Origin: Rhizophlyctis rosea
Lineage: Eukaryota > Chytridiomycota > Chytridiomycetes > Rhizophlyctidales > Rhizophlyctidaceae
Reading direction: 5' to 3'
Assembly (NCBI GenBank): GCA_027596075.1
Contig: JADGJC010000034.1
Span: 124,001-188,000, forward strand
Length of the DNA: 64,000 nucleotides
Part shown: in pieces, positions 25,133-51,579 of the stretch
Layout of the letters: every line of letters starts with the position of its first letter
Numbering within the stretch: the first letter of the stretch is position 1
Program-made: the position numbers and the translations under genes
Notes under the pieces: model-generated
Seen by the model: the letters and a program-made list of their open reading frames with translations, nothing else
Told to the model about the DNA's origin: nothing
The model's database searches: none

Positions 25133-27350
25133 ATGATTACTCGTTGCCTTGCTCTCAAAATACGGCGACCCACGAAGATGGCATCGGCCTGTTCCCCAAG
25201 TTCCGGCACTACTTCCTCTCCCCATAACCGCAGGCTGTCTGCTTTCTCCTCCGCCCGCGCCAGCACAGTGGTCGTAACATCAGCAGATGCGGGCACGAAA
25301 CTTCACAAATTCGTCAAAAAGGCCTTCCCAACAATATGCACTTCCCGCTCCCAAGTGCATACTGCCTTCAAAGAGTCCAAAGTATTACATAATGACGAAC
25401 TGGGCAGAGAAGCAGCCTTTGTGGTGGAAGGGGACAAAGTATCACTGCTCCGCACCGTTACAGAGAGTGAAAGGGATAGGGACTTTGTTAAGATTGACGT
25501 ATGTTGAATTGTTAGGGCCCTGCTATGTTTTGCCCAGTTGCGTTGACGCCATTTACCTTGTTCAGGTGAAGTATGAAGATGACTATTTAGCCATTGTCCT
25601 GAAGCCAGCTGGTCTTGCTCTCAAGGATCATGACACCAAGACCTTGGAATTGGCCCTTCCATACAACCTCTCCCAATCATCCCAACCCGACGCGCTTGAC
25701 AAACCTTATCCCGTAAATGAGTTGAACCGAGCCATGTCCGGCTTAGTCGTCGTAGCGAAAACGGCGGCAATGAAAACGTCCCTCAAACAGATGTTCAATG
25801 ACCATAGCATGGAGATCCGTCACCATCTGATATGTCACGGAAATTTGAAGATCACTTCCGGAAAGGAAGTTGGGGAGGAGTTTGTTATTGACGAAGCTAT
25901 TGATGGTACGTCTTGTTCCGTCTTGACCGTGTGGACCAAGACTCCAATGTCATTGTGCAGGTGTGGCTGCTGAGACATCGTGCAGGATCCTTGCTGTCAC
26001 TAGAACCCGGTACGTCCAGATAGTCAACACTGTCTCAACACTGAGACTCAACCACGTAACTCCCACTCTTCAGCAATTCGCCGTCAGGATTTGTATCAAC
26101 AGCGGAATGCTGCGTGCTCAAGGGCAACTCAAAGCATCAAATCCGCATCCATTTTCTGAAGAAAGGAAACCCCGTAATCGGAAATTCCAAATATACCGAA
26201 CTCCATCGATCTGCAAAAGCCAATGGAATCTACATGACACTTACCAGTATTCGGTTTGCGCATCCAATCACGGGGATGGAACTCACCTTCTCACTACCCG
26301 AACCGGCAAAGTTTGAAGCGTTCCGCGTGAAGGATCAAAGGGCTTGGGACCAGAAGCGTGAGGAGGAGCAGGCAGCGCTCAGTCACGCTCAAAGCTTGGG
26401 TCAGCTTCCAAATGGGGAAACACCTGCAGAGGGCGATGATTTGCTGCAGAAGCCATTGGCATATCTTACTGGCCGGAAGGTAAATGAAGAGATTTCCATC
26501 GTGCCCTGCATTCCACCGCTCAGACGGTCAATTCCAGGAATTTTATGGCTTATCCTTCCATGTCACACCGGCCGTAATGGTGCCAAGATCGGCGACTGAA
26601 ACACTGGTGAATGTTGCAGTTCAACATTTACGCCAAGCGGGTAGCAGCCAACCTTCAATTCTGGATTTGGGCACGGGCAGCGGATGTCTTTTGATTTCTG
26701 CGCTGAAGGCTCTGCCGTCCGCTATAGGAGTGGGACTAGATGCATCCCTATCCGCCCTACAGATAGCGGAGGAGAACGCCCGGAGTTTGGAAATCTTCGA
26801 CCGCACCAAATTCGTTGTTGGCGAATTTGCCAATGTGGCGGACGCCTTGAGGTCTTTGCACGAAGCGCCGGACGGTTTCAGACCCAAATATCCCTTTGAC
26901 GTTATCCTATGTAATCCTCCCTATCTGACACGGAAGCGCACTAAGCTGTATGAGGCACAAGCACTGGCGGGTGAGCCGGAGGAGGCTCTGTTCGCGGGGG
27001 AAACAGGTTTCGAAGCATATCACGCGATCGAGACTGGGCTGAGGGAAGCTATCGCGAGTGGGGTCGGAGCTGGTTCAGGAGAAGAAGGCACTCCGACTGT
27101 GGGAGAAGGGACACTACTAGTGCTGGAAGTGCCGCCTGGTATGGCTTTGGAGGTTAGGAAGATTTTTGAGAGGAGGAAGAGGAGACGGAAGTCGGATGGA
27201 GGATCGGGAAATGAATCCACAGGGGAAATCTCAGGCCCAGAGTCGTCTCAGGGAGCCTGGCAGTTTGTCGAACTCCTCAAAGATGATAAGGAGATGGATC
27301 GGTGTATGGTGTTTAGAAGGATTTCCCATTACGACCCTAAGTCACTGTAA
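25133..27350 (+). CDS. S4 / inactive-looking RluA pseudouridine synthase / PrmC-type methyltransferase fusion
   Basis: Five exons (25133-25498, 25566-25905, 25961-26009, 26074-26479, 26538-27350) join in frame to 657 residues. The N terminus (MITRCLALKIRRPTKM) looks like a mitochondrial presequence; M16 is an alternative start. Residues about 60-120 form an S4 RNA-binding fold (GTKLHKFVKKAFP, CTSRSQVHTAFKE, VVEGDKVSL). Residues 123-350 match RluA synthases (VKYEDDYLAIVLKPAGL, MSGLVVVAKT, KHQIRIHFLKKGNPVIG), but the HRLD catalytic motif reads NELN at 173-176 and the GRTHQIR motif lacks its Arg-Thr. From PLAYLTGRKEFYGL on (about 381-657) it is a PrmC/HemK glutamine methyltransferase with LDLGTGSG (430-437) and NPPY (513-516). 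Mitochondrial release-factor methylation is the likely activity; the RNA-binding half may guide it. Confidence 0.85.
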
Positions 27351-27462
27351 CAAATCCTTTGGGCGAACAACATGTATAAAAATGTAATATAGTGTACAAT
27401 TAAGAGGGGTAATCTCAATATGGATTGGGTGTTTTGGGGGAGGGGCAACGCGTCACAGATCT

Positions 27463-28121
27463 CTAACCTAACCTATCAGACATCAAGTCCGACTCAATCC
27501 ACTGCTTTTGGCGTTCGCGGAAGTCTCGGACCATACGGGGATCGTCGCCTTCAACTCCGATACCCTGTGTAATAAACGTGGGATCCTTTAGCATGAGGTG
27601 ATCGGAGGTGGCCCAATCCGACGTTACCAGTTGGGGAGTCTTTGCATCCAAAACGTATTTGTTATCGCAGTGAGGGCAATATTCGTCTGCTTCATCGTAC
27701 TCACTATTGTAGCCATTGCCGTTCCATTAATATAGACCCATTACTGCGATTTCGGATCAAACGGATACCCACTTCATATCTTTCCGAAACACCTTTTTGC
27801 ACTTTTTACAGGCGAAAACCATCTCCATTGTCTTTCGTAGGTTGTGGTCCGATACTTCTTGGTGGCACTCCGGGCAGTCAAACCACTTTTTGCAGCAAGG
27901 TGCTCGAACGGCCACCTGTTGGGTGAAGCAATCAAGGTGATCGAGACAATAGCGGTGTGCAACAGTGTCAATTTGGCTTCCGCCCCCGGAATATCTGCAG
28001 CAAGGAGCGTCCCGACTCAAATGCATACCTGAGCGTTCAAGATGTGCTTGCCTTTTCAAAGCCAAGACGTCAGCAGTTGCACAACCACAAGTCTGGAAAG
28101 TGCTTGGTGTAACTTACACAT
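27463..28121 (-). CDS. CHY-type zinc-finger protein
   Basis: Small 136-residue zinc protein. Four exons join as 28118-28121, 28029-28051, 27773-27915 and 27463-27703. The product starts MCKHILNAQVAVRAPCCKKW, then FDCPECHQE, MVFACKKCKKVFRKDM and EYDEADEYCPHCDNKYV, covering the CHY zinc-finger cysteine/histidine set. Exon 1 codes only ATG plus one base. Skipping the intron at 27916-28028 gives the longer open frame that looks like a start at 28065, but the GTATGC donor and CAACAG acceptor restore the family sequence. Relatives include the yeast mitochondrial intermembrane protein Hot13 and plant/animal CHY-RING ligases; no RING is present here. Role unknown. Divergent from AOX-COQ6. Confidence 0.82.
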
Positions 28122-28574
28122 TGCCTTCGTATGAGAGGATGTATCCTGGGAAGCAAGGTAAGAGCCTTTCGATAATACAACCCACTTTCCCCAATTTTGA
28201 GGTTTCTTGAGTCTGATCTTGGAAGTTCCAAGCACAACGAAATTGGAAGTCGGGAAACAACGGTTGGCGGCATGGCACTGGGGTTGTCCCAGGTCCGTCG
28301 CGTGTGGGGGGACAGGCCAGCTGCGCCATCATCACCCAATGCACGATCGGAAGTTCGATGTAAACCGCGATGTAAACATTTGCTCTCTAGTATTTCCCCC
28401 ACATCATCTAATGACACTAACGTTGGTGGACGACCTTGTTAAGGAACTCTGCTTCAAATGACTATATTTCTGTAGTTGATCACTTCTGGTCGAGCAGCAT
28501 TCTTCTCTTTCCTCTCAAATTTGTCCCGCATAGTTTTCTAAGGCACTCACTTCGTCTCCATCCGCGCGCCGACA
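28122..28574. promoter_or_regulatory. Divergent promoter region, CHY zinc-finger and AOX-COQ6
   Basis: A 453-bp spacer between two divergent ATGs. Minus-strand open frames here (28070-28417) are low-complexity and probably 5' leader of the CHY gene. No clear TATA box. A CTCTAGTATTTCCCCC stretch near 28384 is CT-rich. Confidence 0.4.
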
Positions 28575-31500
28575 ATGAAGATGCGACCTCTTATACGGCA
28601 TAAATCCTTCCTGACCTGCGCTATACGCCGTAATACAAGACATTGCGTCACGTCCCCTACACCTCCACACCAAACTACTCTTGCATCTGCTCCGCACCCA
28701 AAAGCCTCTACAGACCCTTCAAAATCCATATATACTAATGAGCAACTAACTGAGATAGAACAAACGCATAAGAAGCGAGAGGGTTTGAGTGACTGGTAGG
28801 AGCAGCGTATGATGGACTTCTATAAATTTATCATGTTCATGGACCCACTTCATCGCGCTAGGGTGGCATGGTCTGCGGTGCGGTTACTGCGTTTCGGTGC
28901 GTGTGAACAACCTGCTTGCAAATACACTTGATCGTGCAGGACGTGCCACGTGCTAACTTGGAGTTTCCATTGGTTAATCTCCAGGGTTTGATACGGCTAC
29001 CAACTACTCAGATAAGCTCAATGTGATGAACGAGCGACAATGGTTGAATCGGATAGGTATGTTGGTTGATCTTCCTCTTCCGTACCCATTTGACTGATCT
29101 TTATGGTCAGTCTTTCTGGAAACGGTATGCCACTCATTGCACTAGCTGCCAACAATCAGGATGCTGATCACAAAGGGATTATCAGGTCGCAGGCGTGCCA
29201 GGGATGGTGGCGGGGATGACAAGGCATATGAAAGTATTGGTAAGCCTGCCGTCAGGTTGCTACTCCTTCTGCAGCTGATCAACTCTGGTCAGAACTCCTT
29301 GAACCGTGACCAAGGCTGGATTCATACCTTGCTGGAAGAAGCTGAGAATGAGCGGATGCATCTGATGACCTTCATGGGGGTATGCATTACGTTCACTACG
29401 TCGCACGACGAATCGGGTTGACATTGAAACCCTTCCCCATTACGCAGCTGCGTCGACCCTCAGCATTCTTCCGCGCTTTTGTCATTGTTGGACAGGGAAT
29501 ATTCTTCACACTTTACACAATTGCATACGCTCTCAGCCCTCGGACCTGTCATCGTTTTGTTGGATACTTGGAGGAAGAGGCAGTGCACAGTAAGACCGGT
29601 GCTTGGCAATTGACATCAAGTTTGGGCTTGACACAATTATAGCATATAGCAATTGCCTTCTCGATACCGAGGTTGGCCAGATCCGTCATTGGTATGTGAT
29701 CTTCATAGTAAACTCATTGAATTCATCTGAATGGAAGCATATAATGTATCATCCAGGACCGTGACTCCCGCACCTTTGGTTGCCAAACAATATTGGAGAT
29801 TGCAGGAAGGAGCATCGATCCGCGATGTTGTAGCTGCAGTGCGAGCAGATGAAGCTGAACAGTAAGCTCTTAGTTTGGGTATCTCAATAATTCTCTCATT
29901 CACCCGTCAACTATAATCAATACTCAGCCGGATACGTAATCACGAAATTGCAGACGTCAAAGAGGATCAAGAAGGCAAAATACATACCAATGACACAAAA
30001 GCTATGCCCAGAAAGGATTATCAGTATCAGTCAAACTCCGGATCTCCTCAACGGCCTCCCCTCTTGCACGTTACTCAACGCAACTTCAGTGTATCTGTAA
30101 GATCGAAAGCATCCAGCATTCCAACTTCCTCTGTTGAGGACGCGATCCCTTATGACGTGTGCATTGTGGGTGGTGGGATTGTCGGAACCGCTTTGGCATG
30201 TGGGCTTGGTAAGGACTTTTCTGATTGGCCAAGTCACAGAAGCGTGCAAATGACGATCTATGCTTCCAGCAAAGCGCGTCGATTCTAGCTCCCCCCTATC
30301 GGTTGCCTTGATTGAGGCTGGTGATCTGTTCCGGGAGCCAAACACACAGCCCGGCCAATTTTCTAATCGCGTTAGTTCGCTCACTCCAGGTTCCGTGAAA
30401 TTTTTGAACGGTATGTGCCGACACATTCATGGTACCTTGTTCGTAGTACTGAATGAGGCTTAGATATCGGCGTTTGGGACGGCGTTGATCCATCTCTGCT
30501 TCATCCTTACACAAAGATGCGAGTGTGGGATGCCGTCGGGAAGGGAGCGATTAAGTTCGATGCCAAAGACAATGCGGGGTCGCCCATTGCCTTCATGGCG
30601 CAGAATAACGTGTTGCAGTCGGCGTTGGCGAACATAGCGCGCGACCAGGAGGGCCGAGTCACGGTGTTCAACAAGACGCGGGTGGAGAAGATTGTTGGTG
30701 ATGTGCATTATGGAGCATGGCCGGTAGTCCATTTGGAAGGAGGCGAGAAGATCAGAGCTAGGGTTTTGGTATGAACTTGATGAACAGCATTTATGAAAAA
30801 CCTCACCACTGACGCCTGCCGTGATACAGATCGGTGCTGACGGCGTCGCCTCAAAAGTTCGAGATTTTGCGAAGATTGAGACTGTGGGATGGGACTATCC
30901 TCAAAAGGGTATTGTGGCGACACTGAAGGTGGATGATTCCGCAGAGAATGATACTGCTTGGCAACGCTTCCTTCCTACCGGCCCCATCGCCTTGTTACCT
31001 GTGAGTTTGAGTGATTGTTGCTAGCAGTCAAACCTGACATACGATCTGACATATCCCATGGACAGCTCGGTAAAGGATATAGCTCATTAGTATGGTCAAC
31101 ACCGGCAAATCTTTCTGCTCGCCTGTGTAATCTTCCAGTGGAAGACTTTGTCACGCTTGTCAATGCAGCTTTCAAAAATCCTGTTGAAGATGTGGAATAT
31201 TTGATATCTCAGATTGGGCCGGATGGCACTCCTCAAACGGATTTCAAGGCGGAGGCGGAGTGGGGTCGGGAACGGGCAGTGATGCATGAAGATGAAGTAA
31301 CAATCATGTTCCCACCGGCGGTCATTGATGTTGAGATGGGAAGCCGTGCAAGTTTCCCATTACGGATGCGGAACTCGGTCACGTATGTTGATGACCGGAT
31401 AGCATTGATTGGGTATATACATTTCGTGACGTTGGTAATGCCATATCAACAAAGCTGTTGCTTACAACCGGAATCATCAGTGACGCAGCTCATACGGTAC

Positions 31501-31931
31501 ACCCGCTCGCTGGTCAAGGACTCAACATTGGGCTTGCGGACGCTGAGGCTCTGACAAGCGCGTTAGCAGAAGGGCTTATGGACGGTCAAGATATAGGTAG
31601 GTTGCCTAATGTTTGCGCCTTCCTTTCAATCCGTTCGCTGAAAACTGATATGTAACGACCAGGGCAAATCCATGTTTTGGAGAAATATGCGGCGGAGAGA
31701 TATCTACCAAACTTGGCCATGTTGACAGCCTGTGATGGTATCGGGCGGCTGTTTGGGACTGATGCTCGGCTCACGTCGTGGATTCGGTCAGCTGGGTTGA
31801 ACATTACGGATAGCATAACGCCATTGAAGGTGAGAAGCTATTCCTTGTATTGCTACGAACTGGTACTCATCATGCATTTGACCATACACTAGAGCGTCAT
31901 TATGAAGTATGCGGGTCGTATTTCGCCATGA
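28575..31931 (+). CDS. AOX-COQ6: Alternative oxidase fused in frame to COQ6 monooxygenase
   Basis: Seventeen exons joined by GT-AG introns give 781 residues with no stop. Residues 1-55 are a mitochondrial-type presequence. The AOX domain (about 60-265) has all di-iron ligand motifs: FLET (E113), ENERMH (E152, H155), LEEEAVH (around E203-H208) and RADEAEH (E257, H260). Exon 10 (29928-30208) holds the AOX end (HRIRNHE), a 70-residue linker and the start of COQ6 with [12 protein letters not shown] (341-346 is the GxGxxG FAD motif). COQ6 then shows [35 protein letters not shown] (from 675) and a complete C terminus. AOX oxidises ubiquinol and reduces oxygen; COQ6 is the flavin C5-ring hydroxylase of ubiquinone synthesis; both sit on the matrix side of the inner membrane. 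Retention of the intron at 29862 would end AOX early and lose H260. A single-base error hiding a stop is the main alternative. Confidence 0.82.
30079..30090 (+). other. Candidate internal mitochondrial processing site in AOX-COQ6 linker
   Basis: The linker residues 302-325 are basic, serine-rich and free of acidic residues, like a presequence. They contain R311-N312-F313-S314, which fits the R-3 rule R-x-(F/Y)-/-S used by mitochondrial processing peptidase plus Icp55. The ATG at 30004 (M286) lies just before this segment. Cleavage is inference. Confidence 0.45.
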
Positions 31932-32384
31932 ATACCATAGTTACAGGACAGGATGAGTGTTTCTGGCTTTTCGAAGCATTTCTGCGAAGTTTGGACCATA
32001 TGAAGGGTAGTGACTTCAGCTTAATGAGAAACCATAAGATCATGGCGACGAGCTCATCAGAGCTTGACGAAGTCTTGCTGGAGCCACATGCAAAAGGAAA
32101 TACGTCTGTTGCAACTAAAATTCCGATGCGCAAACCGGGCTGTTGTCTGCATTCAATTGACCTCCACTTCATCTTCCTTCTCAACACTGATTGGCGACAC
32201 AGAACGATAACGGACCAGGACAAAACTAGGCCAGGCATTGACTATGCATATATATTTCCCAATCATTCAATAATGCCGCCGCCATCCCTCCCAATTTCCG
32301 ACATTGACCTCTCGTCCATCAGCTGGCATCATGTCCGCCCTTCCCTTCTTTGATACATCTTCACAGGTCAAGGGGTTGAAGGTA
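31932..32384. other. Spacer between convergent AOX-COQ6 and unknown gene
   Basis: Holds both 3' ends. Plus-strand open frames continue past the COQ6 stop in another phase and show no family. The 3' end of the minus-strand gene could extend into this region to 32267 under another splice choice. Nothing else seen. Confidence 0.4.
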
Positions 32385-33216
32385 TTATTTTTGAGGTAAA
32401 GGGTTGTCGCTCGTTCTCGCGTTCGTGCCTGATGAAGACAATTTTCATTTTCAAGTTTGACACATCGCTTCAAGTTGTCTACGAGCACTGACACTAACCT
32501 TTGCCCCATCATCATTGACTCTCCATTGACTTCCCTTCTCACCGCCCAAATAATGAGATGTGATCAAGTTGTAGCCGACGCTGCTTTCGTTGATTTTTGA
32601 TCGGGATTGCTTGATGTCTAATCGCTGTTGTTGACGGAGATCGTTTGCTGCTAGCTTGGAAAATCTCTCGGTGTTCATGGCTGCTTGGTTGCGTCTAACG
32701 GATGTGTTGAAGCATTAAGTGGAGAAGTTTGGCAGAAGTTAAACAAGCTTTGACCTACCTACGACCTTCCCATCGTTTTGCATCGTGATCCCTTATTACC
32801 TCCCTCCGTTCTTTTTCCAGGACATCCACAGGCGTCTCGTTGAACCTATCCTCCTCGCTGATTCCTTGGGGGTAGAAGACGTCGTTGCTGATATTTCTGG
32901 TGTTGAGGCCTACTCTGGGTTGTCGGGAGGAAGGTAGAGGCGGTGGAGGAAGGGATGTAAGCTTTATGGGTTTCAGAGGTGCATCTTTGTTGACTGGTGT
33001 TGAATATGAAGATCGGTGATGATGGCGGATGGATTTTGATGTGTGGGGAAATCGGGAAGGTGGTTCGAGTGCACAGACGGGGAGTGGCAGGGCTGGTAAA
33101 GGGGCATTCGGCGGGATGGGAAGGAATGTTACGGGTGATGAGGTTGAGAGGTAGTGCGTTGGGCGTGCCGTGAGAGGAGAGTCTGCTTGCATGCTATCTG
33201 AAGGTGATTGAAGCAT
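32385..33216 (-). CDS. Conserved-looking hypothetical protein
   Basis: Not recognised. Exon 1 (33216 down to about 32770) encodes a proline/serine-rich, disordered N-terminal half ending in EEDRFNETPVDVLEKERREV and DHDAKRWEG. A GTAGGT donor and a CAAGCAG acceptor join it in frame to a helical segment at about 32680 (MNTERFSKLAANDLRQQQ, RLDIKQSRSKINESSVGYN, ITSHYLGG). The last exon is ambiguous: one join ends TSDNPLPQK at 32385, another continues to 32267 with FNPLTCEDV. The shift from disorder to a charged, regular helix and the good splice signals argue for a real gene. No transmembrane segment or signal peptide. Confidence 0.5.
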
Positions 33217-33492
33217 GGTTCTTTTTGAATCCGATATTTTCGAAGGGAGCTGAAATAGTGACGGGGAGACTCAACAGAGAGTATTTTGCATGTCCGACTT
33301 TCTACTCTCTACTAGGACCCTGATTTGTCGCCAGCCACCTGCACCACCACCGCTCAAGGCGTCGATAGCAGCCCACTTATCTTGTCGACATGCTTCTTCC
33401 AGTCCTGACAAATTGCTCCATTTGTGACTGGACTAGTACATCTCTCAACCTGATGGCTTTGCTTCACGAGCTTTCTGACATAGCAGCGTGAC
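33217..33492. other. Divergent spacer before the ankyrin gene
   Basis: About 280 bp between the unknown minus-strand gene and the ankyrin gene. No TATA box or recognisable site. It may hold an upstream exon of the ankyrin gene, whose 5' end is uncertain. Confidence 0.35.
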
Positions 33493-35216
33493 ATGGATCA
33501 TATTTGGAAGACTGTCATCTTCTGGTGCAGTGCCAGCTCCCAGGCACACCTGCTGCTGAGTGGGAAACAGGTTCGAGCAAATGTCACCCAGGCAGACTTG
33601 AACAGAGCAGAGTGGCGCCGAAGGTGTCTTCGTTGGGAGGGCAGAGCAAGGGACCAGAACTATGGACCTCAAGCTTACATTGACTTGCGTGGGGTAACGA
33701 GCATCGAGCCTGGTCGCGGGACACCTGACGTCGTTGTCAGACAAAACCCCCTCCATTTCATAAAGACATTAGTTGACCTCCAACAACCCCTACACGTCGA
33801 CCACAACCTCAGAGGAACTCCGTGTGCGACATGCACATTATTCTTGGCTACAGTTGTTTTAGGTATATACAACCTGCATCCGCTCCCGGAAGAAGTGGCA
33901 GTGGAACTGATGTTTGTCTAACAGGCCAGACGGAGTTCGCAAAATATCTTCTTGAACATGGGGCTAATGTACATGCCAAAAACCATACAGCCATAATCCA
34001 TGGTTGCGCCTCGGGACCTTTAAAGATTGTCGAACTCTTGGTGTCTCACGGTGCTCTTGTTGGGGCGAGGAGCGGAAAACCTCTCATCACGGCTTGCGAA
34101 AACGGACATTCGGACATTGTTGGGTTTCTGCTGCACCACGGTGCAGCTGTCAATGCCGTCACTGGGAATACCAATGCCTTTGTGGAAGCATGTCGGGTGG
34201 GATCAATGGATATACTGCAGATGATTATTAACGCCGGCGCAGACATCCTGATTCTGGGCGCTCACGAAGCACTTAGTGCTGCAGTCTCCAAAGGCCATAC
34301 TGAGGTCGTCTCCTTCCTGCTAGAAACGGTCAGCTTCGACCAAATCAGCCTGTCTCTCACCCTCCATTTTGCTGCCCACATGGGTTTTGCACACATTGCC
34401 AAACTTCTCCTTTCCCACGGCGCTGTAGCTAATCTGGGACAGTGCATTGGGGACGGCGGCACTCGGGATGCGGATGCTCTACGTCTCTTACTCGAGTGCG
34501 GGGCAAAAGATGAAAATGGCCAAGCTTTGGTGCGAGCTGTGCTATGGTGCTCCCCACCTATCGTCGAACTCCTCCTCACCTCCCTATCGTCCTATTACAA
34601 AACTATTTTGCTCGATCCTACACTCCTCATCCGTGGTGCCTGCTCAATGAACCAGGTGGAGGTGGCCCGATTGTTAATCTCGCACGGAATCGCAACCGCA
34701 GACATGAATCACAACTACCCCCTCCACGTGGCCATACGGTATGGTCATTACGACGTCGCTAAATTCCTCCTCGAAAACGGCGCAGATCCAAATGCACCAT
34801 GGCCAGACGCACCACCTGTCCTCCTTGCAGCGAAATCCGCCCAACCTGCCATCACTGAACTCCTCCTATCCCGCATCGGTACCAGCTCCTTCAATAGCAT
34901 CCTTCCAAAACATCTCACAACAGAGATGCACATCCTAGTGCGTGCTGCACAAAATCGAGATACTGGCCTGTTGAAAAGGATTCTATCAGATCCGCAGTCA
35001 ACCCAGGATCAAAACGCAGCCATTGTTTGGGCATCGCAAACACATGATGTAGATGCGGTGGAGTTACTGTTGGAGTGTGGGCTTAGCCCGGCTGGGGTAA
35101 TCGGAGGGACAGGCATTAGTTCGGAGAGGGATCTGGAAAAGCGAGCGAAGGGATATCGGGAATGCGCGGTGGTATTTGCAAGGTATTGGAAGGAGGAGCG
35201 CTTAAAGGGGTTCTGA
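33493..35216 (+). CDS. Ankyrin-repeat protein
   Basis: Repeat scaffold protein, same general type as the gene at 8237-10273. The firm part is the last exon from about 33925, with at least eight ankyrin repeats, such as GQTEFAKYLLEHGANVHAKN, KIVELLVSHGALVGARS, GHSDIVGFLLHHGAAVN, GHTEVVSFLLE, AHIAKLLLSHGAVA and GHYDVAKFLLENGADPNAPW. The longest open frame of this exon starts with GTG at 33822, which is not a real start; the exon follows a TCTAACAG acceptor. The upstream ATG at 33493 begins a frame (QAHLLLSGKQVRANVTQADL) that could be the N-terminal exon, ending with HVDHNLRGT. The joining intron is not resolved. Function unknown. Confidence 0.65.
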
Positions 35217-43423: not shown

Positions 43424-46400
43424 TCAATGTTCATCCTGCTTCCGTTCATTCCAAATCTCCGTATCAATCGTGTCCAACGTCAACATCCTCCAAATCTTGA
43501 CATCCTTCGTCTGCCCATACCGCCTAACCCGGCCAATAGCCTGTGTCATCTGCGAATCAAAGTCCTCCTGCGTATCCGCCAGCAACGGGTTGAAGAAGAT
43601 CGCATGATTCGCCGTTGTCAGGTTAGCCCCACTCGCACGTTCATCTCCCAACGCTAACAACAACACCGGCTCAACATCGTTCCCAACCTCCTGGAACCTT
43701 TCAAGCGCCCCACTCTTCTTGTTAGTACTACCCAACACCTGCAACGCCGGGATTTTCGCATCAGCGAGCGCCTGAGCAACAATCTCCATCAGGTCCGCAA
43801 ACTGCACAAACACCAACGCCCGCTCCTTCTTGGCAATCACTTGCTTCTTCAAAAGTTCCACCAAAGCTTGCAACTTCGCACCGTACCGCCCAGACTTTTG
43901 CGCATCGTCCTTCCCCAACGTGGCTGCCCGTACGACGTTGTTGACCCGAGCAGGAGCCTTGCATCCCTTGACGGGGCAGAGTTGCTCTTCCGCACTTTCC
44001 TTCAAGCATTGGTAACAACCGGTGTGGCCACAGCAGGACAGGACGGCGATATCTTCCGGTTTCAATAAAGTCGCCCCCGCACCTTTGGTGGTTTTCTTAC
44101 ACGTTGCGCAAGACGTTTGGATGGTTCGCAAGTCGCGGGAGGTTTGGACGTCACGGACGAAGGCGAAGTAGCGCAGGGAACGAACGCGCCCAACCAATTC
44201 TTTATGGTACCGGCGGAGGACGTGAGTGAGTTCGCGGAACTCAAGGATTTTATCTTCACGGGTAGGCTTCTTGTCCTTCTTCTTCTTCTCACCCGTCTCA
44301 TCATCATATTCAACCTCCTCCTGTTCAATCTCTTCCTCCGCCGCCTCCTCCTCCCCAGAGTTTGTGCCCTCCGAGTCTTCCTCAAAATCATCCTCCTCGT
44401 CCGAATCCTTCGCCTTCTTCTTCCCTTTGCCCTTCGCCGCCGCCTTTGCTTTCGCTTTCCCTTTAGCCGCCCCTTTAGATTTGCCCTTGCCGTTTGCCAC
44501 TTCCTTCCCCTTCCCTTTCCCGGCCGAACCTGATTCCTTCTTAGCAGCCGCAAGTCGCTTCGCCCTGGCCACTGCCCTAGGAGCCAGCTCGCCAGCCTTC
44601 CTAGGTTTCGGCATGGTCTTCCCATCGAATCCGCCCTCCTTCAACAACGTCTTGATTATCTCATCCGCCTCATCATCCCCAAGCCCGCTTTCAACCTCCT
44701 TCTGCCAAACTACGAACTTATTCTGAGCTGGATCCTGGAACCCGCCAAACTTCATCACTTCCGCGTAGCTCACTTTCGCCTTCTCCAAAGCATCCGCCAA
44801 GTCATCCTGGCACTCCTCCAACTGCTGTTTCCGCTCCGCAACAATAGCTTCACAAGCCCCACGTGCATCGTCAAACTGCTGTCCATCAAGCTCGTCAAAG
44901 TGTGAGCACCGCTTCAATAAAGCCTCCTCCGCCGACTGAGAACTCCCCAACGCCTGCTTCAACCGACTCTCCCGATCCCCGTGCTTTCCCTTGCCCGCCG
45001 ACTTGATCGTCTTCTTTGTGTTCATCTCCATTGCCTGCAAGTGATGCTCCAACTCTAGATAAATAGCCCTCTCCGCAGCAGGGAGTACAACCTCAATGAG
45101 CTTCTCCTCCGTTGGGATCTCATCGATTTCCGCAATGTTTTGACGAACGAACTTGTCCAAGAACATCTGAGCGACTTGATGGCGACGTGCATGCCACGCG
45201 GCGCTGCGCACTTCCCGATAGGCATGGAATTGTTCGGCATCGGTTTTGTCGGTGTTGTTCTTCCTCCCACGACCCTCAAGTGGCGCGTCATCATCAATAC
45301 CCAAATGAACCCTGAGGAACACAGCCATGCTCTTCACAGCTGTGAAATCGTGCAAGGGCGGGGTGCCGGAGAGAACCCAGTTGAAGGAGGAATTGAGGCG
45401 GGTGATGGCCGTGTGTTCCTTTTCCTTTGAATACGTGAACTCGTCTACCACGATACGGTTGAAGTTGAACATTTCCATAGGTGGGCACGTCATCTTCTTC
45501 CAATCCCGCTGCACTTCCAAAGTCTTCAAACCCCAAGGATCTGTGCTGAGCACCTTCTTTTTCGGCTTAGCCTTTTGTGGGACATTTTCCTCCTCCGACG
45601 GGTCGTTCACTTCAGCCTCTTCCACCTCTTCCTCATCGTCCTCGGCTTCCTGATCCTCGCTTTCCGATTCCGACTCCTCCTTCATTGCCCGCCCTCCTTT
45701 CTTTGGTGCTGGCACATAGTCCTCATCATCATCTGACTCTATCACAATGCGGCGAGTTTTCTTAGCAGCCGGGGTCCGAACTTTAATCTCCTCCTCTTCA
45801 TCCTCGCTTGCAGGTTCCGAGGCCGTCGGTGTTTTCCTCTTTCCGCCAACGTAAAACTCTATCCGACTATTCTGTTCCTCAACTTCCTTCTTGGTTTTCC
45901 TGACAGCTGATTGTCCAAGTTTCGATCCCTTCCCTTCCGTTTTCACGTTGCCACCCGTTTTCGTGACCGTGCTTTCCGTCTTCACCCGTTTCACGTTGTG
46001 TTGCTCATGGTACTGCTTTCCGACTAATCGCTTCGATGGCAGAAGAGCAACTTCGGTATCATCTCCCTTGTTTCTACCCGCCTCGATTGCGTCCAAAACA
46101 GCCCGCACATTTTCCCTTCCGCCCTCCGAAAGCTTGGAAACCCTTTCCCGGAGTGCGGCAATCATCGTCTCATATCTAGTCTCAAAATGACGCCCTCCCT
46201 TCGCACTCGTCGGCAACCGACCTCCAGCCCCCGAAAAGTCCGCAAAGTTCTCCAAATACTTTGCACTCTTGAAAACGCTGGACGCCATGACAATAACCTC
46301 AGCCTGCTCGACATCTGCAATCGTCAGTTTGTTGAGATTCGCTACCGTGCTGATGACTTTGACGTGCTTGTCGCTGAATGACTTGCCCAAGAACTTCTGG

Positions 46401-49400
46401 ATTTCCGTAGGCCACTGCTTGACCAAATGCCCCGGAACAACAATCAACGTAGCCTTCACTGACACAATTCCCTTGAGTGTCGGCAGCGTAGCGTCCCTTT
46501 TGGAGCGAGCGACATCGATAAGGCCGAGCGTAATAGCAGTCTTCCCGTACCCAACCTCATCTGCTAACACACCGCCCCGAATCAGCGCCGGCCTTGCAGC
46601 CTTCGCTTCCACCCGCCATCCCAGTGAACCCAATTCTGCCTCCGCAACTTCCTCCTCGACGAAAGTTGGCTCAATCGCCTCCTCCTGCTTCACCATCCAA
46701 TGCAAAGACCGAAGTTGCTCGGGACGCAACTTCACCTGGAAGTTAGGGGGTTGGGAATATGCCGGGTCGAGCTTGTTGCTAGTCAACTGGAGCTTTTTGA
46801 GCGGAGCAGGCTTTTCGTCGGTGGTAAGTCGCCAAAGGAGTTGCAAGTGATCCGAGTCAGACCTGATGTTGGCTGGCAGGCTAGCCGTCGCACGGTGGAG
46901 TAAGGAGACAACGTTGACGCCGATACGGACGTGACCCATGCCGTTCTTTTCGTTCAACTGAACAATGAAGGGTTGCGGCCTGCGCTTCATCGCTTGTTCG
47001 TAGGCACCGGCCTGAACCACATCTTCAATGGGCACCATCTTGTTCTTGGCATTGACTTGCCACTTTACATCTGGGCGTGATGGTGCACAGCGGGTGCATA
47101 TCTAAGTTATTGGATCATTAGTTTACAAAAAATTTAAAAACGTGACAACCTGATATTAACGAACCTCCGTAATATCAGATGCATCAACTTCCATCCAATT
47201 AGCCAACGCCGTCAAACGGGATACACGCTCCGTGATCCAAGAGATAGCATCAAAGGTCTGACGCCCCTTATGCAACAAATCAATAGTTCCCCAACTGTCC
47301 TGCGGCCACAAAGCATCCGATCGCCCAAGGGGCACTTTGCAACTAACAATCGCCGCAGCCGCTTTGCAACCATCACTGCCGCTGCAAGTAACACCGATTG
47401 AATCCGCAGCTAAGGGAGTGGCAACCACCGCCGCATCCGTGGCCTTCAAATCAATCTCTGCCGGAGACACTTTGACAGCTGGGCATGGTAGCCACTTCCC
47501 CTTCACATGGCAGTTTACTTGCTTAGGCCCTTTGTCGTCGTTGGGACGCCAGGACGGGTCCAGAGAAGCAACAATCATTCTCTCATCCTCATAGCCGATC
47601 CGACGAATGCTGGTCGAGAACACAAACGGATCCTGATCGGTCTCTTCGCAACGCGTGGGCTCCAAGAAGAAGAACAACGGCCTCTGCCCTTCATCCTCCT
47701 TTGTTCCCCGCTTCTTATGCAACGCTCCCATGGCCGTTCCGCACTTTTCAAACAAGTCGTATGTGCCTGCAATCTCCCGATCCAAGTAACTTTTGGCTTC
47801 CCCCGGCACTCCCAAAATCCGCAATGTCGACCACCACTTCTTGCCCTTGTACTGATCTTCCGTCAACCCCAGACGCGCCTCCCAAGATGGAACAAGTTCT
47901 CCCTCGCCCGTAACAGTGACCTTGAAACTCTTCGAAGTAGGCAAACAGATTTCCCAAACCCCATCAAGAAGCGATTCACCGCTGACCTTCAATCGGGCAA
48001 CGGGTATGGTGAGCAGAGCCCGGAGTTTGCTATTGACGGCTTCAGTTGTCGGGGTTTTCACGATGATCCTCCACTCCGGGTGCAGCGGGTCAAGCCACAA
48101 CTCAAGGATAGCAGTTGGTGAATCATACATAACAAGCCAAATATCCTGACGCTTCACCGACTTGAATCGGAACTCGGCTTCCGGAATAGCTTCCAAAACC
48201 GACCGACGCCATGTAAGCCACATAGACCCATCAACATCCGCCTCCGCCGCCGATTTACAACTATCAAGCAGTTCCGCATCGACTCCACGTACATTCACCC
48301 GCATAGGAATAGCTTTGGTGATTTCTCGTTCAAACTTAGCCGGATCAACACGCATAAGATCCTTCATGACCGTGTAGTTATGCTCAGGCCGTTTGCCACA
48401 TTTCTGACAGGATGTGAAACTGCAATCCGAACAAATTTGGATAGGTTCGTTGCTGGTGCCGGTGCGCCCTTCACATTCACAGTACCGCGCGCTCCTCATC
48501 GCATCCTTCAGTACGTTCCCTACTCTAACCCCACTAGCGGTGGCAAGATCCAATGGTTGTGCATCCAGCATCTCCTCCCCGACAACCGTTTGAGCATCAG
48601 CGGAAGACTCTGACCGTTTGACGGGTTTGGCCGATGCGGATCCGGGTGTCAAGAGCTTGTTGGCAAGGATCAAGGCTGAAATCATGCAGGTTCCGACGAC
48701 CGTCGACGTCATGGCGTTCCCAGCAAGGTCGGCCAAGTTATCTTGCGACTCGCGGGTTAGGATTAGCTCGTTGATAGGTAGACCTTGCAGAGACAACGCT
48801 TCGAGACCGATGAGGGGTCCACCGCGGTTGGTTACGTAGGGGATCATGGATGGGGTTAGGCAGGGGCAGATTCCCGGACGGTTGCTGGCAGTGGTACGAT
48901 CGACGTTTTGCGACAGGTTCCAGACGATGGTCTTGTACGTAACATCAACTCCCTTTTGCGCCATCCGCAACGTATTAATGTCCATCAAATCCAACACTCG
49001 CTCCGTTTGACCGCGACCCCAATCATTCCAAGCAAAGTCCGGAAGGTCGCAAATACTCCCATCTTGCCATGCCGTCAGCGGCCGTTTAATGCCCAGCTTT
49101 TCCGTGTCACGAGCCAATTGATGACGACTTTCGCACCGAGCCCAATCTATTCTACCAGCCTTCTTTCCCCCAGCTTTCTTCTGCGCTAGCTCTTCTCGTC
49201 CTTGATGGATGCGAGGGTCGTCGGAGGGTAGCATGAAGGCTTCGAGAGGACTGGAGGCGGGGCGGGCAAGTTCTTTGACCATCGCGTACCACTTGTCGGG
49301 CAATTGACCGGTCGATCCCTTTTCGGCGGTTACGGCAAATAGGTATACTCGCGTTCTGGTATGCGGAATATAGTAGTCTTTAGTGTCGAAGCGTGCGAAC

Positions 49401-50347
49401 CGTACGTGATACTTTGCTTTCCTGAAATGATCCTGCACTTTCTCCCACGGTGCGCCGCACACGTTCTCAAGAATGACGATTGGAGGCCGATGTTTTTTGA
49501 CCCAGTTCAGCATGCCCATGAAGGTCCGACCCGATTCACCCTTTTGTTCCAATGTCTTTTTTTGGTTGTTGAGATTGGAGTAGTCGACACACGATGTCCC
49601 AGCCACCAGCATGTCGACATTTCCTGGAACTGCCACTTTGGAGCCGTACGCAGTCGTTGCAACATCGTCGCCCAATTCGCACACGTCTCGGAACAAAATA
49701 GGCGGCTTGAAGTTACGCTCGATGTATGCCTGCTTGAAGGGTTCGATCTCGCAACTGAAGACGTGCTCGACGTCTAATTTGGTACCATGGATGTCTTCCA
49801 GCGCACGAGAAATGAGATCCAGCGCGAGAAGCGGACTTTCCGTCCCACTGCACATTGTCGCCACCCGAAGCTTTCGGCCCTGCAACCGCTCAGCGACTTC
49901 CGTCAGTTTCGGAGTCCGTTTCACCATATCGGTGAAAATGGCATCGATGTCATTGATAGGCGGTAAGTCCGTGCCAGCAAGTTTCCCTCCAGAGAATGCT
50001 TGTGCACCACCCTTCTTCCCACCCCTTTTCTTCGGACTACCACTATTGTCGTCATCGTCATAGGAGTCACCGTATTCTTCGGGTTCTTCGTCGACTTCCA
50101 TGTCGTTAGATTTGCTAGGCGACGGCTTGCTTGGAGATTTGAAAAACGCCTCCAACCGCATTTGTTTGCCGTTTGCTGAGGAAGGTTGGGAGCCACGGGT
50201 TTGACGGCGTTGGGGCGAGGAAGGCGAACCCTTTTGAGGTGTTTTCATTTCGCCCTTGACGGTTTGTTTCTTTGGCGATGGAGAATATGCTGCCACGTCC
50301 TCATCCGACTCGGACTCGATGACCCTGCCCTTGCGTTTGGGAGGCAT
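43424..50347 (-). CDS. DNMT5: DNMT5-type cytosine methyltransferase with RING and SNF2 ATPase
   Basis: Two exons (50347-47165 and 47101-43424) with a 63-bp intron join in frame at EITC-type sequence ICTRCAPSRPDVKWQVN to 2286 residues, normal for DNMT5 (Cryptococcus Dnmt5 about 2380). DNMT5 maintains CG methylation using ATP hydrolysis. N-terminal disorder holds QMRLEAFF (62-69), a PCNA-binding PIP box. The methyltransferase has MCSGTESP, FSCEIEPF, TSCVDYS (catalytic Cys about 253) and ENV (294). A Cys-rich cluster follows (CSDCSFTSCQKCGKRPEH). The SNF2 part has DEVGYGKTAI, VVDEF in place of DEAH, VLSGTPP, a RING (CCGHTGCYQCL) and GRVRRYGQ. A Lys/Glu-rich insert precedes the RING. The open frame begins at a TTG; the first ATG is MPPKRKG. 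No chromodomain is visible. Without joining, the two exons look like separate genes. Confidence 0.92.
50141..50164 (-). other. PIP box motif in DNMT5 N terminus
   Basis: Encodes Q-M-R-L-E-A-F-F, a perfect Qxx(L)xxFF PCNA-interacting motif in a basic, disordered segment (flanks K61 and KSPSK). Confidence 0.7.
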
Positions 50348-51579
50348 TGTTGCTACCGTCAATCTGCAATAATCTTCTGGTTAGCTAATGACGTAAGATT
50401 GCATGAAACTCAAGAGATAACAAGCAAAGAGTGGGAAGAGGTGTTGTTGACAACACTGTTGTAAACAAACCGCACTCGTTCAACACTCAGAAAACGGCGT
50501 TCGCTATATACCAGTGTGGTGCGCTCAAGAATGCCAAAAACAAAGAGCAATAAGTTCTCAAAATTTGAGTTGTAATGATTGGTAGTAAATGTTGCAAAAA
50601 GTATGCTGTTTGTCGTGCAAAATATTGACTCGACCCCTATTTTCCATCGTCAGCGACTCATCTCGATTTTCTCGAGCAAGCAAGAAAAAGGAGAAACAAC
50701 ACTCACAGTAGTTCACTTCGGAAGAAGTCAAGCAGACTTCCAAATACAGTGCGAAGCGAGCGCACTTCCACACGGGTCGACTTAAAGCTTCCGATTAGAA
50801 GCTGAGAATAGCACTGATGTCGACCTCAGGTGACTTTTGAGAGCAAAAGATGGAAGCTGCCCCTCCCTCAAAGCGCTCCAACCAGTTGGTCCGAGACATT
50901 TGGACATTGTTTGACGGGAGGAGGTGTCTGTGCGACAATCATCCAAAAAGGGGTGTAATGGGCGTGAGACATCCACCAGATCTGGGCTTCGCTTGGAGTT
51001 TGAACGAGGACAACCCTCCCATCAACAAGTCCTCACCAATTGGGCATGCAATGCGCGGTAACGGGCAAGGAACAAGCAACTGCACTAAGTCGACTGCTTT
51101 TGCGACCGCGGCAGGAAGCGTCTGGGGAGACTTGTGAGACGACGTTTCTGTGACGACCCCTTCAAGTGTTCTCACTTGCTACTCCACCGAGATGTTCCAT
51201 ACCTTCTCCATCACGACGTTCCACTTGCTTAAGGGCACCGTTTGAAAGCGCAGTGCTGACTATGAGCAGAATATGCCAGACCCCGTTGGGCCTGACGCGT
51301 TTCCTGAACGTCTCTCACCTACATCGTGAACTGATGACTAAAAGGGAGCTATTGAACGATGCTCTTCTGTAGGAGCGGGGAGAGAAGACGACCAATATTC
51401 TCTAGTGCCGAGTTCAGGATTCCAAACTTATGGTCTTTTGAGAAGCCCTCAGGTCATGGTGATTCGCATATGACCCAATATAACGCATCAATTTGAACAG
51501 CTTATTTGATACACATGTTAACTATGTTACATACTACATACAACAGCAGACATACAACAATAGACTTCTCTGATGATCA
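50348..51579. other. Upstream of DNMT5, no gene recognised
   Basis: About 1.2 kb. Holds the DNMT5 promoter and leader, where a 5' UTR intron is possible. Open frames are under 100 residues and show no family. The right end is the 3' flank of the Ssh4-like gene, with AT-rich sequence (51480-51560). Confidence 0.45.

Follow-up and report, generated by a model that had tools for sequence, protein, structure and literature searches.

The window considered here, a stretch of 64,000 nucleotides from the chytrid fungus Rhizophlyctis rosea (Chytridiomycota, Rhizophlyctidales), raises the question of whether an alternative oxidase (AOX) and COQ6, two enzymes that work at the inner membrane on its matrix face, are encoded between 28575 and 31931 as one continuous protein or as two neighboring genes. 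The locus presents a single open frame in which both enzymes are full length and one exon runs across the joint. We estimate a probability of roughly 0.68 that this represents a genuine end-to-end gene fusion, which is predicted to yield one tandem mitochondrial precursor comparable to yeast Arg5,6. This reading draws on one assembly and on DNA sequence.

Gene structure and the two enzymes

The single source assembly comprises 44.1 Mb in 634 contigs, with the locus situated on a contig of 215,293 bases. The gene model, rebuilt by hand and checked by script, has the same exon count, outer bounds, exon 10 and protein length as the preliminary description of 17 exons and 781 residues without a stop. 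The spliced exons give a 781-residue frame free of internal stops, and all 16 introns are of the GT-AG type, 53-88 bp in length and consistent in phase. The features of the locus are as follows:

28575..31931, + strand: whole AOX-COQ6 gene, 17 exons, 781 amino acids (rebuilt model)
28575..28795, + strand: exon 1, with a presequence-like stretch of AOX (residues 1 to about 46) and the first part of its domain
28796..28861, + strand: intron 1, which holds an in-frame TAG (rebuilt model)
28862..29955, + strand: exons 2-9 and the first 28 bases of exon 10, remaining AOX domain with the six iron-ligand positions
29928..30208, + strand: exon 10, AOX end, linker and COQ6 FAD motif in one exon
29956..30150, + strand: linker, residues 270-334 (rebuilt model)
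30079..30090, + strand: R311-N-F-S in the linker, candidate MPP site of the R-3 type (motif scan; putative MPP use)
30154..31931, + strand: COQ6 half with its stop codon, starting at the FAD motif (residue 336) and extending from the last part of exon 10 through exon 17

Exon 10 carries the AOX end, the linker and the COQ6 FAD motif at the coordinates originally assigned to it; the linker, which had been put at 70 residues, is indeed present in this exon but measures 65 residues by the domain bounds. Separately, the in-frame TAG at 28797-28799, which appears if exon 1 is read straight through, was considered as a sign of a pseudogene and ruled out, as it falls within intron 1. This intron is supported by the AOX homology, which runs across its splice (SDW before and VA after the junction, in the alignment to P0125).

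The fused AOX contains the full domain, with PF01786 spanning residues 53-269 over profile positions 1-216 of 216 (302.9 bits, cut-off 22.7; E 1.6e-90). Inspection of the alignment bears out the earlier statement that all the iron ligands are intact: E113, E152, H155, E203, E257 and H260 are all present and identical to the residues in aligned 3vv9, whose six corresponding positions (four Glu, two His) we take to be the AOX iron ligands. In a tree of 27 AOX proteins, built from fused residues 49-275 and 26 database proteins with a stricter column filter, the fused AOX pairs with the stand-alone Spizellomyces 'palustris' P0124 with support of 99/98; this tree omits four distant proteins (P0147, P0152, P0171, P0183), and the genus names of all 26 database members are, presumably, those of chytrids. 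In a wider tree, which combines fused residues 1-285 with 30 AOX proteins from the database, the same pairing has support of 92/66 and the snail AOX P0147 joins next. Both trees exclude P0134 and other unnamed metagenome AOX matches. The end branch of the fused AOX is long (0.65 versus a median of 0.21), and that of its sister P0124 is as long (0.68). By phylogeny, the fused AOX is a diverged second paralogue, which together with P0124 forms a diverged second AOX lineage.

The COQ6 half is spanned by TIGR01989 at residues 335-773, over profile positions 1-437 of 437 (428.8 bits, E 2.3e-128). It had been described as having every motif intact; the FAD motif (GxGxxG; 11 residues), which starts at residue 336, and the GD motif (15 residues) are both present, but the score falls below the curated COQ6 cut-off of 489.3 (NCBIfam TIGR01989). 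In the sequence comparison, the low score seems to reflect the lineage and not damage, because all four stand-alone chytrid COQ6 proteins scored also fall below 489.3 (434.7-475.4 bits), and the cut-off is therefore no usable test in this lineage. Membership of the UbiH/COQ6 subfamily is found with TIGR01988, the cut-off of which (224.65) is passed at 397.1 bits. The stand-alone COQ6 of Borealophlyctis nickersoniae (P0001) shows 66% identity and is likewise a full-length UbiH/COQ6 flavin hydroxylase. However, as deposited, it starts with its own presequence-like stretch, whereas the R. rosea COQ6 comes after AOX. Two complete proteins, mitochondrial by family, are contained in one frame.

The joint and the linker

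Comparison with stand-alone AOX proteins allows the joint to be placed. Like P0124 and the R. rosea protein P0125, the fused AOX has the full domain and all iron-ligand positions, and its tail is of the same length as that of P0124; however, the stand-alone versions stop after this tail, while the fused version lacks a stop and continues into COQ6. The last residue of P0124 matches K284 of the fusion in a gap-free tail alignment, although in the last 14 columns of the tail only four residues are common to the two. The AOX-type tail ends at K284 (30000), and after one codon there follows M286 (30004-30006). Since stand-alone P0124 aligns gap-free to K284, the AOX would be complete and only one codon away from M286. 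The stretch between M286 and the FAD motif measures 50 residues, as compared with a median N-terminal extension of 45 among 79 COQ6 homologues, these being the ones with extensions of 20-90 residues out of 92 with both motifs, from 316 proteins. On this alignment, the two proteins thus seem to abut, each of them complete, and nothing is left over for an intergenic region.

Exon 10 is open from the H260 codon, which is completed by its first base, through the AOX tail and linker to the FAD motif. None of the 37 alternative introns modeled from its GT[AG]NG donors, a form that fits 15 of the 16 modeled introns, brings in a stop before residue 319; for seven of the 37 the acceptor lies beyond 30410, and nothing was appended after the splice in the test. 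Retention of intron 9 gives a stop at 261, with Gln replacing H260. Within the exon 10 frame, AOX has no exit before COQ6.

The openness of the linker on its own is weak evidence, because open 65-codon windows are not rare in the flanks of the gene: 715 of 5540 are open across both flanks, a control that took in 27361-28560 with a probable minus-strand zinc-finger gene, and 355 of 3142 are open if the control is limited to the downstream flank (31936-33700). Codon usage does not separate the linker (score -0.064) from the open flank windows (-0.095 +/- 0.107; downstream flank alone -0.108 +/- 0.094), the in-frame windows of the AOX-COQ6 gene having 0.070 +/- 0.100. The case rests on two complete, intact enzymes and a single exon, and not on openness alone.

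With regard to targeting signals, residues 1-46 form an N-terminal presequence-like stretch devoid of D/E, with eight R/K and a hydrophobic moment of 0.49. Linker residues 291-329 (39 residues) likewise contain no D/E, with four R/K and a best moment of 0.30, lower than the COQ6 N-extension median of 0.41. Acid-free runs of at least 38 residues are not discriminating, being found in 48/79 mature parts and 38/79 N-extensions of the COQ6 homologues. The internal presequence character of the linker, as judged from its composition, is weak; this would also fit a COQ6 relying on the AOX presequence. The linker contains a single R-x-[FYL]-[SA], a pattern which we take to be an R-3 type MPP site, in the form of R311-N-F-S; the motif also occurs once inside COQ6, as R513-D-F-A. 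It is present in 32 of the 79 COQ6 N-extensions versus 11.3 expected from mature windows of the same length, and in four of the 15 chytrid COQ6 N-extensions among the matches listed.

Other copies, relatives and precedent

Separate AOX and COQ6 genes elsewhere in the genome, which had been suggested as something to look for alongside the preliminary description, were sought in the R. rosea contigs, with a different outcome for each enzyme. AOX profile matches lie on three contigs (C502, that of the AOX-COQ6 locus, and C581). The one on C502 is a canonical stand-alone AOX, the domain of which is covered by a single open frame (334.2 bits), corresponding to HDV00_009850 (P0125); going by this gene, the fused AOX is not the sole oxidase of R. 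rosea. On C581, at 28448-29034 on the reverse strand, there is a diverged AOX-like gene, the exon pieces of which were joined by eye, with Gln at two iron-ligand Glu positions (ENQRNH for ENERMH; GYFQEA for GYLEEE). No second COQ6 was found: a profile search gave 11 matches, five at the AOX-COQ6 locus and the other six partial at 40.5 bits or less, and in a search with the COQ6 half seven of eight matches were at the locus, the eighth having 24.1 bits. These searches scored the best candidates only, in an assembly that may be incomplete, and a sole COQ6 here means that none other was found.

The deposited annotation does not report the fusion. The protein P0240, 'putative ubiquinone biosynthesis monooxygenase' [Rhizophlyctis rosea], of 363 amino acids, is 100% identical to the COQ6 part and begins at residue 419, thereby missing the AOX, the FAD motif and the COQ6 N-terminus; an intact deposited protein for the fused AOX is absent from the best 120 AOX-half matches listed. 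From a second R. rosea annotation (HK097), only the AOX P0127 occurs among the best 120 matches listed per search.

The earlier remark that no described AOX-COQ6 fusion was known agrees with two protein searches and with the open-licence papers listed. PF01786 and PF01494 were not found together in any of the best 120 of 525 matches to the 781-residue query (E <= 0.001), in a search that scored 7998 candidates of 0.55-1.75 times the query length; its top score was 632 bits, and since single-domain matches head the list, a close fusion would be expected above this value. A fusion of this length, which could have been listed, was likewise absent from the best 120 of 7691 matches to the COQ6 half (E <= 0.001), while the AOX-half search takes shorter proteins only and could not list one. 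Nor is it named in the open-licence papers searched, among the matches listed. As deposited, the COQ6 proteins of Borealophlyctis and Spizellomyces are unfused, and in S. 'palustris' the AOX (P0124) and COQ6 (P0004) genes do not seem to share a contig, being on contigs of 185,490 and 336,289 bases, respectively.

In Homolaphlyctis P0013 and Gonapodya P0248, COQ6 does share one predicted protein with another domain (isocitrate lyase in the former, cytochrome b5 in the latter), although the partners differ; both are known only as deposited models and may be artefacts of merged models, whereas the AOX-COQ6 joint lies within one exon. By eye, AOX is present twice in tandem in the deposited P0002 (Rhizoclosmatium hyalinum), P0005 (Parachlorella kessleri) and P0121 (Actinostola), which could be either true tandems or merged gene models.

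A closer parallel is offered by the tandem mitochondrial precursors. According to the passage on these in PMC8847149, in which Friedl et al. 2020 is cited, yeast Arg5,6 is cut internally by MPP to give two enzymes from one precursor, and similar MPP motifs were detected by in silico search in Rsm22-Cox11, Etp1 and Atp25. As far as that passage describes them, Arg5,6, S. pombe Rsm22-Cox11 and Etp1, and Atp25 resemble AOX-COQ6 in having two complete mitochondrial proteins per frame, one N-terminal presequence and a candidate MPP site between the partners. AOX-COQ6 differs from them in its partners, an alternative oxidase and COQ6, in an internal presequence that is weak by hydrophobic moment, and in that its processing is a prediction. 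Neither enzyme is new, nor are tandem mitochondrial precursors; it is the pairing of AOX with COQ6 that has no counterpart among the matches listed.

Fate of the predicted precursor and its neighborhood

Taken as a genuine fusion, the locus would have arisen through loss of the stop codon from a diverged second AOX paralogue and its joining to a complete COQ6 gene, which apparently brought its own presequence. One spliced mRNA would then give one precursor, imported by means of the AOX presequence; AOX would occupy the matrix-side leaflet of the inner membrane, with COQ6 next to it on that side. Of the earlier interpretation, the sequence supports the continuous reading frame, whereas the joined protein at 1:1 and the coupling of respiration bypass to quinone supply would be further predictions, as the two enzymes may be separated after import at the MPP-type site of the linker. 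A cut by MPP near R311-N-F-S, between F and S, would release two separate enzymes in equal amounts; if uncut, the precursor would have AOX and COQ6 tethered by the linker of about 65 residues. By analogy, cleavage of the linker is slightly the more probable outcome, a leaning based on the Arg5,6 precedent and the similar motifs in Rsm22-Cox11, Etp1 and Atp25, as presented in the PMC8847149 passage. Points against the fusion reading as a whole are its basis in one assembly, a linker codon usage that does not set it apart from open non-coding windows, the weak internal presequence, the limited identity of the tail to P0124 (4/14), the unfused P0240 and the unfused relatives.

If the fusion is expressed, the only COQ6 found in R. 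rosea would be synthesized at a fixed ratio to a ubiquinol oxidase. Whether quinone supply is linked to respiratory bypass could then be tested directly, and the tandem mitochondrial precursors, of which few are known, would gain a membrane-associated pair of redox enzymes. Should the precursor simply be cut in two, the interest would be mainly evolutionary, with two genes placed end to end and one codon between them.

That the product instead persists as a stable bifunctional enzyme, with uncut AOX-COQ6 keeping its ubiquinol oxidase within the CoQ synthome or next to it, appears rather unlikely. The single frame and the shared location on the matrix face of the inner membrane would suit such an enzyme, as would the weak internal presequence if COQ6 needs no import signal of its own. 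Nevertheless, the linker does contain an R-3 type MPP site, the known tandem precursors are cut or bear such motifs insofar as they are covered in PMC8847149, and the bulk of the bypass could be served by the other AOX in the genome. The fuller version of this proposal, in which COQ6 is made only within the stable protein and a specialized second AOX is tethered to the CoQ-making complex, is doubtful; were it true, ubiquinol would be oxidized where ubiquinone is made, setting the local redox state or oxygen level around CoQ synthesis.

It is improbable that the locus consists of two transcription units, with COQ6 produced mainly from a promoter inside the AOX gene and translated from M286, and with the AOX decaying or rarely read. 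The ordinary length of the COQ6 N-extension from M286 and the long AOX branch are in keeping with such an arrangement, although P0124 has a similarly long branch. On the other hand, the AOX splice sites, ligand positions and frame are all intact, the AOX has no stop of its own such that an mRNA spliced as modeled reads on into COQ6, and a presequence beginning at M286 looks weak. Very improbable is an assembly error by which intergenic DNA between neighboring AOX and COQ6 genes was lost, for despite there being one assembly of 634 contigs and an unfused deposited model, the joint is in frame, within one exon and between a complete AOX tail and an ordinary-length COQ6 N-extension, and random loss would seldom keep tail, extension, frame and single exon together.

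Other genes in the window include a further candidate fusion of two enzymes, which lies some 1.2 kb upstream of AOX-COQ6, at 25178-27350 on the + strand, with five exons in one frame of 642 amino acids. Its first part is an RluA-type pseudouridine synthase (PF00849, 41.4 bits) and its second a PrmC/HemK-like glutamine methyltransferase (TIGR03534, 154.1 bits, short of the cut-off of 199.1), and its exon 26074-26479 contains the end of the former and the start of the latter. The interval between the two candidate fusions holds, at 27760-28113 on the - strand, an ORF that matches the CHY zinc finger (PF05495) at 40.2 bits, over a cut-off of 31.3. Further downstream, at 43424-50362 on the - strand, neighboring long ORFs carry SNF2 and C5 DNA methylase domains; taken together, they resemble what we take to be a DNMT5-type gene.
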